Shown here in pieces: positions 9,868 to 21,390 of a stretch of 64,000 bases of DNA; position 1 is the first letter of the stretch; the number at the start of each line of letters is the position of its first letter. Source of the DNA: Blastopirellula retiformator. Its GTDB lineage: Bacteria > Planctomycetota > Planctomycetia > Pirellulales > Pirellulaceae. A model generated the notes under the pieces. It was given only the letters and a program-made list of their open reading frames with translations, searched no databases and was not told the DNA's origin. A program made the translations under genes and the position numbers. The stretch is taken from positions 434,001-498,000 of the forward strand of contig NZ_SJPF01000001.1 in assembly GCF_007859755.1 (NCBI RefSeq). Direction: 5' to 3'.

Positions 9868-10275
9868 ATGGATCTCACCGCGCCGGCCGTCCTGTTTCCT
9901 GCGATCTCGCTGCTGTTGCTCGCCTACACCAATCGTTTTTTAGCGCTGGCGACGCTGATTCGCAACTTGCATGATCGTCATATCGCCAATCCCGACGAAC
10001 TGATCATCGCCCAGATCAGCAACCTGCGGCGGCGAGTGCTGTTGATTCGCAACATGCAGGCCTGCGGCGCGTTCAGCCTACTGCTTTGCACCGTCTGCAT
10101 GTTTGTCCTCTTCTTCGACATGCTCTTATTCGGCCAGGTAACGTTCGGATTCAGCCTGCTGCTGATGGCGATCTCGCTGGCGATTTCGATCTACGAAATC
10201 CAAATCTCGGTCGACGCCCTCAACCTGCAACTGAGCAGCCTAGAAGATTGCGACCCGAGCCGGCGGAAGCCTTGA
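9868..10275 (+). CDS. DUF2721-family membrane protein
   Basis: Integral membrane protein of 135 residues that matches the DUF2721 pattern: an N-terminal hydrophobic segment (APAVLFPAISLLLLAYTNRF), an amphipathic middle with NLRRRVLLIRNMQ, and two closely spaced C-terminal helices (ACGAFSLLLCTVCMFVLFF and FGFSLLLMAISLAISIYEI), ending in the typical ALNLQLSSLED. The function of the family is unknown. It lies 38 bp after the ligase gene, possibly in the same transcript, and faces the convergent GroES-like gene across the hairpin at 10331-10355. Confidence 0.75.
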   Translation: MDLTAPAVLFPAISLLLLAYTNRFLALATLIRNLHDRHIANPDELIIAQISNLRRRVLLIRNMQACGAFSLLLCTVCMFVLFFDMLLFGQVTFGFSLLLMAISLAISIYEIQISVDALNLQLSSLEDCDPSRRKP

Positions 10276-10330
10276 GGGTTTGTTTTCGCTTCCGTGTTCC
10301 ATTCTTCAAGAGGAACCCAAGAAACAAAAC

Positions 10331-10355
10331 AAGACGCGCTTGGCGGGCGCGTCTT
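10331..10355 (-). terminator. Terminator between convergent genes
   Basis: AAGACGCGC (10331-10339) pairs with GCGCGTCTT (10347-10355), loop 7 nt. Read on the reverse strand the stem is followed by GTTTTGTTTC, so it mainly terminates the GroES-like gene. It may also stop the forward transcript. Confidence 0.75.
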
Positions 10356-10378
10356 GGGGATGCAGCTCTGGCGGTCGA

Positions 10379-11078: not shown

Positions 11079-11152
11079 GGGCGGTTAGCTCAGTTGGCTA
11101 GAGCGTTACGTTGACATCGTAGAGGTCACAGGTTCGAGCCCTGTACCGCCCA
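11079..11152 (+). tRNA. tRNA-Val (anticodon GAC)
   Basis: A complete 74-nt cloverleaf. Acceptor GGGCGGT/ACCGCCC with discriminator A, D-arm GCTC...GAGC, anticodon arm TTACG-TTGACAT-CGTAG (anticodon GAC), and T-arm ACAGG-TTCGAGC-CCTGT. CCA is not encoded. The genomic island starts directly downstream, so the 3' end of this tRNA is the likely integration site. Confidence 0.96.
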
Positions 11153-11342
11153 CTCCTGTTGAGGCCTGTTTTCACCGCGAAAACGGGCTCCTGAAAAGAT
11201 AGTTCGTCTTTTGGCGATTCGCCGGAAGACGACGCGAAGTCCGACAGCCTCGGTATCCAACGCTTACGGCGATTGGTGTGTCAGCCGAGACTGTCGGGCT
11301 TTCCTTCTGGAAGTAACTCTCAGGTAGTCTTATAATTGGAGC

Positions 11343-11582
11343 ATGATCCAGATGCAATTAGATACCGTCGAAAGTCTCCAACGCAGCTTGAAGCCAAGCC
11401 AAGCGGCGAAGCTCGCAAGGGTCTCGGTAGATCGAATCTATCAGTTCTGCAAGGAGGAGCCGCAGCGTTTTCATGCGGTCAAAGTTGGAAGCACTTGGTA
11501 CATCGATCCCGATACATTCAAAGAGTTTGCAGCGCAAGAGCGACAGGCGGGCAATCCCAATTTCAAGAAACTTGACGACTAG
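11343..11582 (+). CDS. Excisionase-like helix-turn-helix protein
   Basis: Small DNA-binding protein of 79 residues with a MerR/excisionase-type HTH: LKPSQAAKLARVSVDRIYQF, then a wing ending in KVGSTWYIDPDTFKEFAAQER. Such proteins help the integrase excise the element or act as small regulators. It is the first gene of the island after the tRNA. The start is ATG 11343; MQLDT at 11352 is an alternative. A gene-free stretch follows (11583-11973), with small stems and the terminator at 11857. Confidence 0.75.
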   Translation: MIQMQLDTVESLQRSLKPSQAAKLARVSVDRIYQFCKEEPQRFHAVKVGSTWYIDPDTFKEFAAQERQAGNPNFKKLDD

Positions 11583-13238: not shown

Positions 13239-13405
13239 CAACTACCATCAACACACGGACGTCACGGCGAACGGAGCCGGCCATCACGAGTTGGCCGAAA
13301 TCGCCGAAGCAAGAAACGCCCAGGGATGTGGGCGGGTTTCGAGGTGGCCAGGTCTGCTGGAGAGGATGCCGGTAGGCCTGGCCTTTGGAATGATTGAGGC
13401 CTGCC

Positions 13406-14359
13406 ATGGAACGGCCGCGGAAGCTCTCCCCTTCGTCTCGCCTGCGCGATCTCTGGGAGCTGCACTACTTGCCGCAGTGCATCGCCAATCCGAATTCGCG
13501 GGCCGTCGAAGGCTACTTGCGGGCGATCGCCCTCTGGGAAGAGCTGACGCCGAATCGGCCGCTCAAGAAGATCCGGTCCGAAGACTTGGGGTGGTTCAAA
13601 GAGCGACTGTTGCAGATGACCTGGCGGGGGAAGATGATCAGCGCCAACACGGTCCGCAAGCACCTGGAGCATATCGGCTGGCTGCTGAACCAGGCGGGGC
13701 CGAAAGCGAACTACAAGTCGCTGAAGACAGCCAAGGGGCTGGTCGACGACGTGCCGTTTACGCGGCTGCCGCCTTACAAAAGATCGTATCGGGCCGAAGC
13801 CAAAGAGGAACATGTCGCCGCCCTGCTGGCGGTTGTCGACGCCGCCAGGTTTCCGCAGCTGGAGGGCGTGCGGCCAGGCGATTTGTGGCGGGCGCTGCTG
13901 CTGACGATGCTTTCGACCAGTTTGCGGATTGGGCAGTGCGTCGCGCTGCCATCGCAAGCGGTCGACTGGCCCGAGCAGCTGCTGATCGCGCCGGCCGAGA
14001 TCTGCCAGAAGAGCAAGATGGACGAACCGAAGCCGCTCCACGAAGCGGCGGTGCGGGCGCTACTGCACGCGAAGGCGCACCGCCGCGAATTGCTCCTGCC
14101 GTTTTTTCCGCGGCCGCATGCGAAGTCGACGATCTACGACGAGCTGCATCGCTTGCAGCGGATCGCTGGCGTCCCGCGGTTCGGCTTTCATGCGATCCGC
14201 CGGCATGTCATCACCACGCTGTCGATCGACTCGCCGGCGGCGGCCCAGTTGGCGGCCGGGCACCAGGACTACAAGACGACGCAAGGCTACCAGACGGTGC
14301 GCCTGCTGCGTCAAGCCGTCGACCGCATGACGATCTTCGACACGATTCAATCCAACTAG
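13406..14359 (+). CDS. int: Tyrosine recombinase / integrase
   Basis: Site-specific recombinase of 317 residues that should integrate and excise the island. It has an N-terminal SAM-like core-binding domain (about 5-110, LRDLWELHYLPQC...) and a C-terminal catalytic domain. The active-site set is complete: Arg174 in STSLRIGQCVAL, His262-x-x-Arg265 in FHAIRRHVIT, His286 in AAGHQDYKTT, and the nucleophile Tyr295 in TQGYQTV, nine residues after His286 as in XerD. The start is ATG 13406 with GAGG upstream; ATG 13394 is possible. Unlike many islands, the integrase lies 2.3 kb from the tRNA rather than next to it. It is followed by a terminator. Confidence 0.9.
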   Translation: MERPRKLSPSSRLRDLWELHYLPQCIANPNSRAVEGYLRAIALWEELTPNRPLKKIRSEDLGWFKERLLQMTWRGKMISANTVRKHLEHIGWLLNQAGPKANYKSLKTAKGLVDDVPFTRLPPYKRSYRAEAKEEHVAALLAVVDAARFPQLEGVRPGDLWRALLLTMLSTSLRIGQCVALPSQAVDWPEQLLIAPAEICQKSKMDEPKPLHEAAVRALLHAKAHRRELLLPFFPRPHAKSTIYDELHRLQRIAGVPRFGFHAIRRHVITTLSIDSPAAAQLAAGHQDYKTTQGYQTVRLLRQAVDRMTIFDTIQSN

Positions 14360-15452: not shown

Positions 15453-15848
15453 ATGGCTTTGATACTAACGCGAAAAAAAGGGGAATCGATTCAGTTCGAC
15501 GACGACGTGATCGTGACGGTTGACTGGATCCGCAAGCGAAAGGTGCGGTTTCTGGTCAAAGCGCCGGAGACGACGCGGGTCGTGCGGGCCGAGATCGTCG
15601 ACCAGCCGGCGCCGGAGTCAAGTCGCGAGCGGCGGCGGAAGGACTATCCGACGCCGATGCTGATCCTCGTCCGGAAGCAATGGGAATCGATCCGGATCGG
15701 TGACGATGTGATCCTGACAGTCGATCGAATCGACGCTGGCCGGATCCAAGTGGCGATCATCGCGCCGACGGAGACGATCGCCCTGCGCACCGAGCTGCTC
15801 AACCGGCCGCCGAGCGAATCGCAGCCGCAACAAAAAGCGACCGCCTAA
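15453..15848 (+). CDS. Tandem two-domain CsrA-family RNA-binding regulator
   Basis: CsrA/RsmA proteins bind GGA motifs in mRNA leaders and block or alter translation. They normally act as dimers of one about 60-residue chain. This 131-residue protein has two CsrA domains in one chain. Domain 1 (about 2-51) reads ALILTRKKGESIQFDDDVIV, with VVRAEI at its end. Domain 2 (about 69-121) starts MLILVRKQWESIRIGDDVIL and ends ALRTEL. The RNA-contacting arginine equivalent to Arg44 is kept in both (Arg45 and Arg112, each the 44th residue of its domain). The chain could fold as an intramolecular pseudo-dimer. The start is ATG 15453 with AAGGAG six bases upstream; an in-frame TTG at 15447 is disfavoured. 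It is one of two CsrA-like genes on the island. Confidence 0.85.
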   Translation: MALILTRKKGESIQFDDDVIVTVDWIRKRKVRFLVKAPETTRVVRAEIVDQPAPESSRERRRKDYPTPMLILVRKQWESIRIGDDVILTVDRIDAGRIQVAIIAPTETIALRTELLNRPPSESQPQQKATA

Positions 15849-18705: not shown

Positions 18706-18928
18706 CGAACCTGATTTGAAGCCGGGACCGGCAAACGTATCGGTCGAATTTTACAACGACGTGAGGAAGCTGCTAAATCATCGCCACCCAGGTCGAGAGA
18801 TTTCGACCAATTTCCATTTGCAACTCGTCATTCACTTGTCGGCGATCGATCGCGTCTACCAGGAATTGCCGCTGGAGACGCCGAAGAAGTCGGCTGGATT
18901 CGCCGCCGCTAAGCGAGGGGAAACATGA
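18698..18928 (+). CDS. Hypothetical island protein
   Basis: Protein of 76 residues starting at GTG 18698 (VSNEPDLKPGPANVSVEFYN) with an excellent AAGGAGG Shine-Dalgarno seven bases upstream. It is soluble with no cysteines, and no family was recognised. It is the last gene of the overlapping set 17259-18928. The following 208 bp hold no clear gene. Confidence 0.52.
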   Translation: MSNEPDLKPGPANVSVEFYNDVRKLLNHRHPGREISTNFHLQLVIHLSAIDRVYQELPLETPKKSAGFAAAKRGET

Positions 18929-19136
18929 TCAACTTCATCGGCGGTTCACACTCCCGCGCCATCGAGTGACCAAACGTGTCACTCGAAACAACTTCGGATG
19001 TCCGCAGATGACCGGTTATACGGCCTCACTTGCGGGGAACTTTGACGAAAACAGAGCGAAATCGCTTGCCGAAACCGATAATGCTTGCGTATCGTGTACG
19101 GGCAGGAAGCGCAAGCAACAACGCAAGGTAACTAGC

Positions 19137-19370
19137 ATGGCGTGCACGGTTTACACGCTCGGACATCGCCATTCGCTGCTGATTGGCGAAGCCCGAATCG
19201 TCAACCTCGGCCGCAAGAAGTCGAAGATTTTGTACTTGGGAGACGCCGCCAACGTGCGCGTTGACCATACGCCGTTTCCTGACAACGACGCAGGCGCCAC
19301 GCCTGCGGATTCCTCCGACGCCGACTCTCTGGCGTCAGCAGCGACTGCTGCCAATGACCTGGCCCCTTAG
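19137..19370 (+). CDS. CsrA-like small protein with disordered tail
   Basis: Protein of 77 residues. Residues 8-46 (LGHRHSLLIGEARIVNLGRK, then KSKILYLGDAANVRVDH) follow the CsrA strand pattern: the LIG turn, LG-x-K, then G-x-A-x-x-V-x-V before the end. Asp-His replaces the usual His-Arg at the RNA-binding site, so it may be a non-binding or altered-specificity homologue. Residues 48-77 are an Asp/Ala/Ser-rich tail. The start is chosen as ATG 19137 behind AAGGTAAC; longer forms have no Shine-Dalgarno. The putative GGA-hairpin RNA follows 60 bp downstream. Family membership is by eye only. Confidence 0.42.
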   Translation: MACTVYTLGHRHSLLIGEARIVNLGRKKSKILYLGDAANVRVDHTPFPDNDAGATPADSSDADSLASAATAANDLAP

Positions 19371-19429
19371 TTGAATCGCCCCGCACGAATGCGTTGATTC
19401 ACTCTCGGCCGTAACTCCCTACACCTAAC

Positions 19430-19547
19430 CAGAGACGCTTGCGCAAAGGAATGCGCACTCCGCAACGGCAGGGATTGCCGCGTCTCTGATTTGGGCCGGA
19501 GCGACGCCTGGTTGAATCCGTGCCAGGCGTCGCTTCCGGTTTTTTTG
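19430..19547 (+). ncRNA. Putative CsrA-binding small RNA with intrinsic terminator
   Basis: CAGAGACG (19430-19437) pairs with CGTCTCTG (19481-19488) and closes a three-way junction. Hairpin A is TGCGCA-AAGGAA-TGCGCA (19440-19457), and hairpin B is CGGC-AGGGATT-GCCG (19466-19480). Both loops expose A-N-GGA, and hairpin B contains CAGGGAT, the core of the published CsrA consensus. A very strong terminator follows: a 12-bp stem 19500-19511/19523-19534, extended by CCGG, then seven T residues to 19547. This is the layout of a miniature CsrB/RsmZ-type sponge RNA. It may be processed from the upstream gene's transcript, as no clear promoter is seen. Confidence 0.6.
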
Positions 19548-19600
19548 GCTGTCGCTGACGCGCCGTTAGGGCTAACGCGGTCCGAGCGTTTGCGGCGAAC

Positions 19601-19618
19601 AGAAGAAAGGAAGCTTCT
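19601..19618 (+). promoter_or_regulatory. GGA hairpin at the ribosome site of the gene at 19620
   Basis: AGAAG (19601-19605) pairs with CTTCT (19614-19618), leaving AAAGGAAG in the loop, two bases before the ATG at 19620. It has the form of a CsrA operator. The stem is AT-rich and only 5 bp long. Confidence 0.38.
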
Positions 19619-19619
19619 C

Positions 19620-20120
19620 ATGGGACTGGCTCAAAAGCTGCTGACGGCGATTCTCTGGGCGACTCTCGAAAAGGCGGGCAAGGCGTTTGCCGTTCGCGAC
19701 GACTTGAAGGAGGGCGCCAAGCACGACGTGCAGCTTCACGTCTACGGCACGATCGACGGCTGCAAAGTCGACCAGCCGATCTCCGGAACCTTCTCGGTCG
19801 CCGTCGGCAAGAAGGCGGCGGCCAATAAGAATCTGGCGGCCGATCAATCGCTCGCCTGGGTGCTGCAGTCGGTCGACGCCGAGATGGCGGCCAAGATCGA
19901 AGAGCGTCTGCTGGCCGACGCCAAGAAGCTCGAAGCGCGGGCGAAGCGGAAAAACAAAGATCTCAAAGAGGGCGAGCCGACTCGGACCCTGCATCTCGAA
20001 GTTGACGACGCGACCGATCAAAAGTCGAAGGACGCCGCCAAACGGATCCTCCAGCGATACATGCTGACCGGCACGAAAAGTACCGCCGGCGCCACTTCCT
20101 ACAAACCCGCGGCGGCCTAG
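19620..20120 (+). CDS. Hypothetical island protein
   Basis: Protein of 166 residues, start MGLAQKLLTAILWATLEKAG, lysine-rich and soluble. The segment HDVQLHVYGTIDGCKVDQPI suggests a beta-strand region; the C-terminal half is helical (AEMAAKIEERLLADAKKLEA). No family was recognised, though it could be a single-strand DNA-binding or structural protein. The start at ATG 19620 has AAAGGAAG in a hairpin loop just upstream. The terminator at 20109-20133 overlaps its stop codon. Confidence 0.55.
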   Translation: MGLAQKLLTAILWATLEKAGKAFAVRDDLKEGAKHDVQLHVYGTIDGCKVDQPISGTFSVAVGKKAAANKNLAADQSLAWVLQSVDAEMAAKIEERLLADAKKLEARAKRKNKDLKEGEPTRTLHLEVDDATDQKSKDAAKRILQRYMLTGTKSTAGATSYKPAAA

Positions 20121-20133
20121 GTCGCCGCTTTTT
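20109..20133 (+). terminator. Terminator overlapping the stop codon
   Basis: GCGGCGGC (20109-20116) pairs with GTCGCCGC (20121-20128, one G-T pair) around a CTAG loop, then five T residues. The TAG stop of the preceding gene lies in the loop. Confidence 0.7.
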
Positions 20134-20166
20134 CCCTGCCCCTCCTTTGCGAAAGGTTTTGTCGCG

Positions 20167-20499
20167 ATGACCTATTTCCAATTCCTCCACCTGGTCGGCA
20201 GCAATCTCGACGTCGTCGAGCCGCTCGCTGGTTTGATCCAACATCGACAAACGGTCAGCGGCATCCAGGCTCGCTGGAACGTCGACAAGGAGATCGGCGA
20301 CCTGCTCGTTCCGCGGATCGCCCAGCTGCAGCGCGAGTCCGAGTCGGTCACGGCCGCCGAGGCGCCGGACGAAACGACTGCCGAGACGGTGCTGCTCGAA
20401 AAGCTGGCGAAACGGCCGAGCGCCCAGGCCTGGGACGGTTCGCGACTGCGGCGACTGTTTGAAATCGCGATGCCGATCGTCGACCTTTTCGTGCGGTAA
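20167..20499 (+). CDS. Hypothetical island protein
   Basis: Protein of 110 residues, start MTYFQFLHLVGSNLDVVEPL, helical and acidic in the middle (ESVTAAEAPDETTAETVLLE), ending in RLFEIAMPIVDLFVR, which could be an amphipathic or membrane-touching helix. No family was recognised. The start is ATG 20167 with AAAGG about 13 bases upstream. A hairpin at 20518-20546 follows. Confidence 0.5.
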   Translation: MTYFQFLHLVGSNLDVVEPLAGLIQHRQTVSGIQARWNVDKEIGDLLVPRIAQLQRESESVTAAEAPDETTAETVLLEKLAKRPSAQAWDGSRLRRLFEIAMPIVDLFVR

Positions 20500-20577: not shown

Positions 20578-20757
20578 ATGCGAGAGTTCATCACGGTATT
20601 GATCGGCCTGCTCGGCTCCGTGGTGATTTTGTTCGTCGTAGTCGTACTCGCCTGCGTCGCGTCGACGTTTGTCGTGTTGGCCATACGCCACGCTTCGCAG
20701 CCCAACATCGAAGTTCAATCGATCGAACCGCCCCTATCCAGCGAGATCCCGCAATGA
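20578..20757 (+). CDS. Small single-pass membrane protein
   Basis: Protein of 59 residues with one long membrane helix (FITVLIGLLGSVVILFVVVV, continuing to about residue 36) and a short polar C-terminus (RHASQPNIEVQSIEPPLSSE). It could be a holin-like or anchoring protein; nothing decides. The start is ATG 20578, with GTG 20563 five codons earlier as an alternative. It overlaps the next gene by 4 bp (ATGA). Confidence 0.5.
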   Translation: MREFITVLIGLLGSVVILFVVVVLACVASTFVVLAIRHASQPNIEVQSIEPPLSSEIPQ

Positions 20758-21222
20758 TCGCTAACGACAAGTTTTTTGCCCTGCCGCCGGTCCATCGCAG
20801 TCCGTTCACGATTCGCAAGTCGTCGGACGAATTTCCGTACCACCTCGCCGACCCAGGCTGGCCCGAAATCCGGAAGCGCTCAGGCGCCGGCGAGGGCATC
20901 AAGGTTGGCGTCGTCGATACCGGCGTCGACGAGACGCATCCGGAAGTCCAAGAGTCGCTGGTCGACGCGCGCGATTTCAGCGGCAGCCGCTCGGGCCCGG
21001 TCGACGTCGATGGTCACGGCACGCACGTCGCCAGCACGATCGCCGGCAAGCATGTCGGCGTCGCGCCCCGCGCCAAGCTCTACATCGCCAAGGCGCTGGG
21101 GGACAACGGCAGCGGTTCCGATCGAGCGGTCGCCAATGCGATTTTCTGGCTGATTGACCAGGGGGTCGACATCATCAACATGTCGCTCGGCTCGCCTTCG
21201 CCGTCGCCGGCGAGCCAGCCTG
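20754..21222 (+). pseudogene. Truncated subtilisin-like protease (S8)
   Basis: N-terminal two thirds of a subtilase. The catalytic Asp is in GVVDTGVDETHP (about residue 55), the catalytic His is in DVDGHGTHVASTIAGKHVGV (about residue 88), and the helix-strand region DIINMSLGSPSP is recognisable. The GTSMA segment with the nucleophile Ser is absent: homology stops near 21200-21222, and the frame then runs to 21341 across transposase-derived sequence in a different frame. No signal peptide is seen. It cannot be an active protease. It may have been intact cargo of the island before the IS event. A short fusion protein of 195 residues could still be made. Confidence 0.75.
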
Positions 21223-21390
21223 ACGATGATGTTCAAGCTGGCCCAATCGGCCGCGAAGAAATGGAGAAAACTGAACTGCTGCGAAAAGCTCTCCCTCGTG
21301 CTGGAAGGACGTTCCTTCCAAGACGGAATCCTGCAGGATAAGGCCGCCTAGTTCAGGAATTCAGAACACGACATTTGACAATAGCTCGGG
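21223..21390 (+). mobile_element. IS256-type transposase 3' remnant and terminal repeat
   Basis: From 21223 another forward frame reads TMMFKLAQSAAKKWRKLNCC and then EKLSLVLEGRSFQDGILQDK, ending AA and stop (21349-21351). This resembles the C-terminus of IS256-family transposases (pattern FKLAQ...A-x-K-x-WR-x-L...G-x-x-F-x-DG). About 10 bp later comes AGAACACGACATTTGACAAT, similar to the terminal repeats of that family. Only the last ~40 codons remain. The family assignment is from memory of the motif pattern. Confidence 0.6.

Follow-up and report, generated by a model that had tools for sequence, protein, structure and literature searches.

A candidate CsrA-sponge RNA on an apparently truncated prophage of Blastopirellula retiformator and its probable relatives in temperate phages

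Could a mobile element that encodes a CsrA regulator also encode an RNA that titrates it? This question was raised by a structured RNA candidate in a 64,000-nucleotide stretch of Blastopirellula retiformator DNA, hereafter the window, for which the initial annotation had proposed that a sponge RNA, csrA, GGA operators and a small CsrA-like protein share one mobile island. CsrA reads A-N-GGA in loops, and the plasmid-borne regulator RsmQ binds pieces of the host RNAs RsmY and RsmZ (available text of PMC9928087). Genes for csrA are known on phages and plasmids, being present in 30 of 2517 phage genomes, and CsrA has been argued to matter to mobile elements, with the purpose of these genes left open in the accessible part of that report (PMC7366521). 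Csr sRNAs occur in many Gammaproteobacteria, and protein antagonists of CsrA in some other organisms (PMC7652899, available text).

The candidate RNA consists of the following parts; R2 is a covariance model built from related RNAs, here called sister RNAs, and both are described below.

19430-19547, plus strand: candidate CsrA-sponge RNA, a three-way junction with an intrinsic terminator (fold z -5.4; R2 match at 19436-19543, 17.2 bits)
19440-19457, plus strand: hairpin 1, hexaloop AAGGAA at 19446-19451 (from the fold; aligned by R2 to sister hairpin 1)
19467-19479, plus strand: hairpin 2, loop AGGGAUU/GGGAU (from the fold; aligned by R2 to sister hairpin 2)
19495-19546, plus strand: terminator hairpin and a run of seven T (from the fold; the inner stretch GACGCCTGG..CCAGGCGTC is similar to sister hairpin 3)

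Folding of 19425-19550 with RNAfold reproduced the architecture first described for this RNA, a three-way junction presenting AAGGAA and AGGGAT loops ahead of a terminator. A closing stem of 9 bp (19430-19438/19480-19488) encloses hairpin 1, with a 6-bp stem and the hexaloop AAGGAA, and hairpin 2, with a 4-bp stem and a GGGAU loop that becomes AGGGAUU once an A-U pair opens; the terminator hairpin spans 19495-19540 and is followed by the T run. The minimum free energy (MFE) of the whole was -66.2 kcal/mol (z -5.4), and that of the junction without its terminator (19425-19494) gave z -3.9; in neither case was any of 200 shuffles equally stable. Two A-N-GGA hairpin loops in the MFE structure were matched by one dinucleotide shuffle in 1000, and two loops with any GGA by 30 in 1000. 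A scan of 440,016 strand-bases from this genome (the window and loci L024-L031) gave six pairs of A-N-GGA hairpins at most 40 nt apart, and a T-run lay within 110 nt of two of the six, the RNA locus among them. A geometric descriptor of the junction with GGA in both hairpins gave many matches, two of which, including the RNA, had a T-run within 80 nt. The terminator was absent from the listing of a simple terminator scan. Rfam gave no match to the RNA at gathering score and, at E<=5, a single antisense match to an unrelated family (E 1.2). In presenting two A-N-GGA hairpin loops, the RNA shows one feature of the Csr/Rsm sponge class; a terminator hairpin with its T run is present, and no promoter-like site was found.

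The element around the RNA carries these features.

11079-11153, plus strand: tRNA-Val, presumed insertion end
11343-11582: HTH gene (HTH_17, 26.8 bits, just below the cut-off of 27)
13394-14359, plus strand: tyrosine integrase (PF00589; 49-53% identity to four sister elements)
15453-15848, plus strand: two-domain csrA of the element (PF02599, E 4e-26, 91.1 bits against a cut-off of 27, in two stretches)
19137-19370, plus strand: csrL, conserved small gene preceding the RNA, without detectable similarity to CsrA
19601-19618, plus strand: GGA hairpin with loop AAAGGAAG over the Shine-Dalgarno sequence of p19620, putative CsrA operator
19620-20120, plus strand: p19620, conserved gene downstream of the RNA, with relatives in sister elements
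20754-21341, plus strand: S8 peptidase gene, presumed truncated element end (PF00082 profile positions 1-121 of 288 only)

The tandem CsrA that had been reported on the island was borne out by the two PF02599 stretches, and the gene lies two ORFs beyond the integrase. The small CsrA-like protein, in contrast, was not detectably CsrA. Pfam gave no match to csrL of the window at E<=1 nor to five members of its family at E<=10, hhalign assigned a probability of 9.7% to a relationship with CsrA, and Foldseek, run on an AlphaFold2 model of moderate confidence (pLDDT 75), returned nothing at E<=0.001, with CsrA absent from the best 50 of 76 matches; csrL as a CsrA paralogue was rejected on these four analyses. 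An inverted repeat, CCTATC..GATAGG, lies upstream of csrL in the sister elements (L068:18813-18850, L087 and L121; imperfect in L071), and the Shine-Dalgarno sequence of sister csrL adjoins its 3' arm, so that translational control of csrL by this repeat is possible. The other conserved neighbour, p19620, matched no PHROG at E<=0.01.

No second copy of the tRNA-Val 3' end of at least 13 nt, which would mark the far end of the element, was present elsewhere in the window. The element also lacks the late genes found in a related prophage (G213, below) and ends in a partial peptidase gene. We would call it a truncated prophage rather than an island.

Searches that started from the RNA of the window were uninformative. 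BLASTN against 147 relatives matched eight genomes including its own, the other seven over 22-57 query bases; none of these seven folded into the junction, ORFs were listed around two, and we regard them as chance-like. A covariance model made from this RNA alone found only itself among 296 genomes; a weak match that it gave in G213 (L071:10301-10418, E 0.008) covers no more than the 3' end of the RNA located there by R2 (10215-10359). Searches of genome and viral contigs with patterns from the window proteins gave no relative, and neither BLASTN of the G171 RNA nor tblastn of the integrase matched any of 50,697 phage records.

The integrase led to relatives among the 296 genomes, of which 32, the window's own included, matched at E<=1e-8. 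Nine genomes of one sister genus (g43) were covered, and four of them (G171, G196, G213 and G221) were among the 32, with integrase identities of 49-53%. Together with L167 (IMGVR_UViG_3300030233_000279), a viral contig found by a pattern scan, the prophage-like elements of these four genomes make up five relatives. Common to all five are an integrase, a csrA directly after it, which in the sister genus encodes a single domain, then csrL, and then an RNA of 140-149 nt with four motif hairpins. The sister-genus elements adjoin tRNA-Asp. Late genes were demonstrated for G213 only, which carries a terminase, portal, head protease/capsid and cement protein; its element is therefore a prophage. For G171 and G196, one contig carries the integrase and another the csrL-RNA part, and the order on L167 is partial integrase, csrA, csrL, small membrane ORF, RNA, p19620 and a gene common with G213. 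A 2258-aa repeat-rich ORF, RHS-like by eye, lies between csrA and csrL of G221 (L068:10689-17465). On G196 contig C6, a portal-like fragment was recognised by eye. Shortly downstream of this fragment and of the csrL-RNA genes there is a CRISPR-like array (L121:4680-8800) of at least 48 repeats, with a unit of 36 nt and a spacing of 71-77 nt.

Relatives of csrL and p19620 occur in the same order in G213, G221 and G171, and the RNA of the window sits between csrL and p19620 as it does in these three and in L167. Attenuators usually combine a structured domain with a terminator behind it, and the position of p19620 directly downstream in the window and in four of the five relatives would suit a cis-acting leader whose junction senses CsrA or another ligand and whose terminator attenuates transcription into p19620. 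G196, however, has csrL and keeps the RNA (R2, E 1.5e-36) with no p19620 match, which disfavours an attenuator of this gene; p19620 has a GGA hairpin of its own at its start, and the sister RNAs consist of several separate motif hairpins. We consider the leader interpretation highly improbable. A viral-contig search with the p19620 relatives returned the contig of L167 and one other, which is without the RNA region because it begins inside p19620. A more distant p19620 relative (E 3e-15) was seen in G045 (L086/L088), with no strong R2 match; it has two A-N-GGA sites upstream, one of them in a GGCC-AUGGAU-GGCC hairpin.

The sister RNAs share a distinctive anatomy. Hairpins 1, 2, 4 and 5 bear the motif, the last two of them within the terminator stem, and hairpin 3 (GCCTGG..CCAGGC) is without the motif. 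A-N-GGA is present in 18 of the 20 motif loops across the five, the exceptions being hairpin 4 of G221, with GGA only, and hairpin 4 of L167, where GGA is lost. Most motif loops are hexaloops (seven bases in G221 hairpin 2, five in G221 hairpin 4), and the loops of hairpin 2 vary (AAGGAU twice, AAGGAAU, AUGGAA, ACGGAA) in a way that spares A-N-GGA. GGA spacing is 23-25 nt between hairpins 1 and 2, and 18-19 nt between hairpins 4 and 5 in the four sisters with both GGAs. When the structure was applied to three sequences, 90.6% of cells were paired, compared to 36.5-54.7% when it was slid. Both partners differ in three pairs, a number that 20 of 500 shuffles also reach. Each of the four sisters tested had three or four A-N-GGA loops in its MFE structure, which none of 1000 shuffles equalled; for loops with any GGA the corresponding counts were 0, 0, 5 and 11 of 1000. 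Rfam RsmZ (RF00166) matched two of the five in the sense direction below its cut-off of 44 (18.7 bits, E 0.96; 17.7 bits, E 0.034), alongside sub-threshold matches to unrelated sRNA families, some of them above RsmZ in bits and one at 30.

Instead, csrL or a membrane ORF that precedes it in some sisters could have the RNA as its 3' UTR and terminator, acting as a sponge only once processed, or not at all. In the window the RNA begins 60 nt past the csrL stop, a search of 18800-20200 gave no sigma-70-like promoter, and a small membrane ORF extends into the 5' part of the RNA in G171, G196 and L167; for these last two reasons the RNA may be processed from the 3' end of a longer transcript. Sister csrL nevertheless ends in a separate terminator before the RNA starts, and the GGA loops are kept irrespective of the upstream neighbour. 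We judge the 3' UTR interpretation improbable.

We scanned 1,069,998 strand-bases (overlapping regions counted twice) for clusters of at least three A-N-GGA hairpins, with stems of at least 4 bp, in 170 nt. Of the five distinct places found, four were the slot between csrL and p19620 in the window, G221, G213 and G171, and the fifth (L081:9740) was unrelated. The RNA of the window itself has two motif hairpins, since the third one counted lies at the p19620 Shine-Dalgarno sequence.

R2 was built from the RNAs of G171, G213 and G221, and the window sequence was left out. Against 395 relatives it found the RNA of G196 (C6:1774-1921, E 1.5e-36), and it scored the RNA of L167 at 103.8 bits. Below the four strong matches the best E was 3.2e-4, and a further 56 of the 395 genomes had a match at E<=1; among 26 loci returned for the weak matches, only L099 (G337) had three A-N-GGA hairpins in 170 nt, lying within about 60 nt on the minus strand (1537-1597). 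In 392 genomes drawn from the phylum, two reached E<=0.001, G171 and G426 (2.7e-4). Viral loci were also collected by pattern. The sister-hairpin-3 pattern gave four loci, none with a GGA cluster. Loci from a second pattern, in which the scan is biased because the pattern itself contains a GGA hairpin, gave nine places with at least three hairpins, namely one family member (L167), three leaders of csrA-like ORFs and five unexplained places. The three leaders (L132:3574; L134, minus strand, 7049; L148:6339) have three or four A-N-GGA hairpins directly before an ORF that was read as csrA-like by eye; this suggests autoregulated viral csrA, in a sample biased by having been fetched with a GGA-hairpin pattern.

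Does the RNA of the window belong to this family? A covariance model from related elements had been proposed initially as a check, and R2, run unfiltered over the 64 kb, ranked this RNA first (19436-19543, 17.2 bits, E 9.2e-4), the next match scoring 11.6 bits and the best in a further 190,009 bases, 156,008 of them from the same genome, 11.8 bits; with default filters R2 missed it. Because 15.2 bits (E 0.0025) were reached elsewhere in L167 (13490-13694), these scores are not decisive alone. The R2 alignment pairs hairpins 1 and 2 of the window with sister hairpins 1 and 2, and the 24-nt GGA spacing between them agrees with the sisters. The inner terminator stem has GACGCCTGGTT in common with G196 and GTGCCAGGCG with G213, and R2 itself places this stem differently. 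Plain alignment was modest, as high a score being found in 44 of 10,426 background windows by the sum and in 335 by the best single score; one background window that outscored the RNA, L031:13567-13651, was taken for coding sequence by eye. Of the four motif hairpins that mark the family, the window RNA has hairpins 1 and 2 only. We take it as a reduced member on the R2 match together with synteny, with hairpins 4 and 5 missing, and conclude that it is probably a reduced, divergent member of the phage RNA family.

As the element appears truncated, this copy may be decaying. One can thus imagine a family of real CsrA sponges of which the window preserves a remnant without function: two of the four motif hairpins are gone, as are late genes of the G213 type, and the element stops in a partial peptidase gene. 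Against such decay, the two hairpins that are left are intact, as are the 24 nt between them and the terminator, and the reading frames of the two-domain csrA, csrL and p19620 are open. A functionless remnant seems to us unlikely.

Candidate targets for CsrA lie on the same elements. In all four sisters having p19620, the start codon of this gene is in or at an AAGGA hairpin; it is within a hairpin with the loop AAGGAU in G213, G221 and L167, and the loop in G171 is AAGGAAU. In the window it is the p19620 Shine-Dalgarno sequence that lies in the AAAGGAAG GGA hairpin loop. In longer folds of G213 the start hairpin competes with another pairing. The hairpin at the sister p19620 start is likely a CsrA operator. 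Leaders of the five single-domain csrA genes all have AAAGGAU(U) at the Shine-Dalgarno sequence, inside an MFE hairpin in four and paired in G221. Judged by motif and position, these leader and start hairpins would fit a CsrA that represses its own gene and p19620, with the sponge lifting this repression.

In the circuit that we propose, CsrA of the element or of the host would bind the GGA hairpins at the p19620 start and the csrA Shine-Dalgarno sequence and block translation; as the RNA accumulates, it would compete for CsrA and free both messages. With two A-N-GGA hairpins spaced by 24 nt, the window RNA would accommodate about one CsrA dimer, and the sister RNAs, with their second pair 18-19 nt apart, about two. 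Transcription, CsrA binding, stoichiometry and titration are what we infer for the RNA of the window.

Alternatively, the RNA might mainly titrate the many CsrA proteins of the host for the benefit of the phage, a variant that overlaps our preferred explanation. Across the host genome there are 13 CsrA-domain matches, including two within the island gene. The elements point inward instead, since all six (the window and its five relatives) carry csrA and operator-like hairpins in their own genes, which indicates an internal circuit; both readings may hold. We consider host titration as the main role rather unlikely, though clearly less so than any of the alternatives above. Several of the host CsrA-domain matches sit in long or two-domain open frames.

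The observed structure, motif arrangement, synteny and covariance match, and the presence of csrA on the same element, lead us to propose that the RNA of the window is a CsrA sponge of phage origin and belongs, as a small and divergent member, to an RNA family of this bacterial family's temperate phages (probability about 0.68). Most likely, it titrates CsrA within an element that has a csrA of its own. The initial proposal of sponge RNA, csrA and GGA operators on one mobile element thus gained comparative support from five relatives and R2, and lost its small CsrA-like protein.

The family resembles RsmZ, RsmY and RsmX and CsrB and CsrC of Gammaproteobacteria (RF00166 and relatives) in having several GGA loops, an intrinsic terminator and csrA in the genome, and differs from the RsmZ/CsrB class in lying below Rfam cut-offs, being phage-borne and belonging to another bacterial group. 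With phage csrA, CsrT of Legionella ICEs (PMC7366521) and plasmid RsmQ (PMC9928087) it shares a CsrA gene on a mobile element, whereas the available text of those reports describes no element-encoded sponge RNA, and RsmQ binds host RsmY/Z. FliW and CesT also relieve CsrA control, but they are proteins rather than RNA (PMC7652899, available text). No phage-encoded CsrA sponge RNA was among the matches listed by our literature search, made outside subscription papers and preprints, and the search found nothing on Csr control in this bacterial group.

Temperate phages of this group might carry a full Csr switch of their own, comprising csrA beside the integrase, operators at the csrA Shine-Dalgarno sequence and where a conserved gene upstream of the packaging genes begins, and, immediately before this conserved gene, a sponge RNA whose titration of CsrA would switch the phage programme. 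We advance this broader claim, a design of the CsrB/RsmZ type on a virus outside Gammaproteobacteria, tentatively and at slightly below even odds. The work supplies a covariance model and concrete candidate operators for Csr control in this bacterial group. If phage csrA is linked to an RNA family, the presence of csrA on phages would also gain a testable explanation, namely a post-transcriptional switch that acts in addition to host manipulation or in its place. Taken together, our data suggest that some bacterial viruses bring along a whole CsrA switch, protein and decoy alike.
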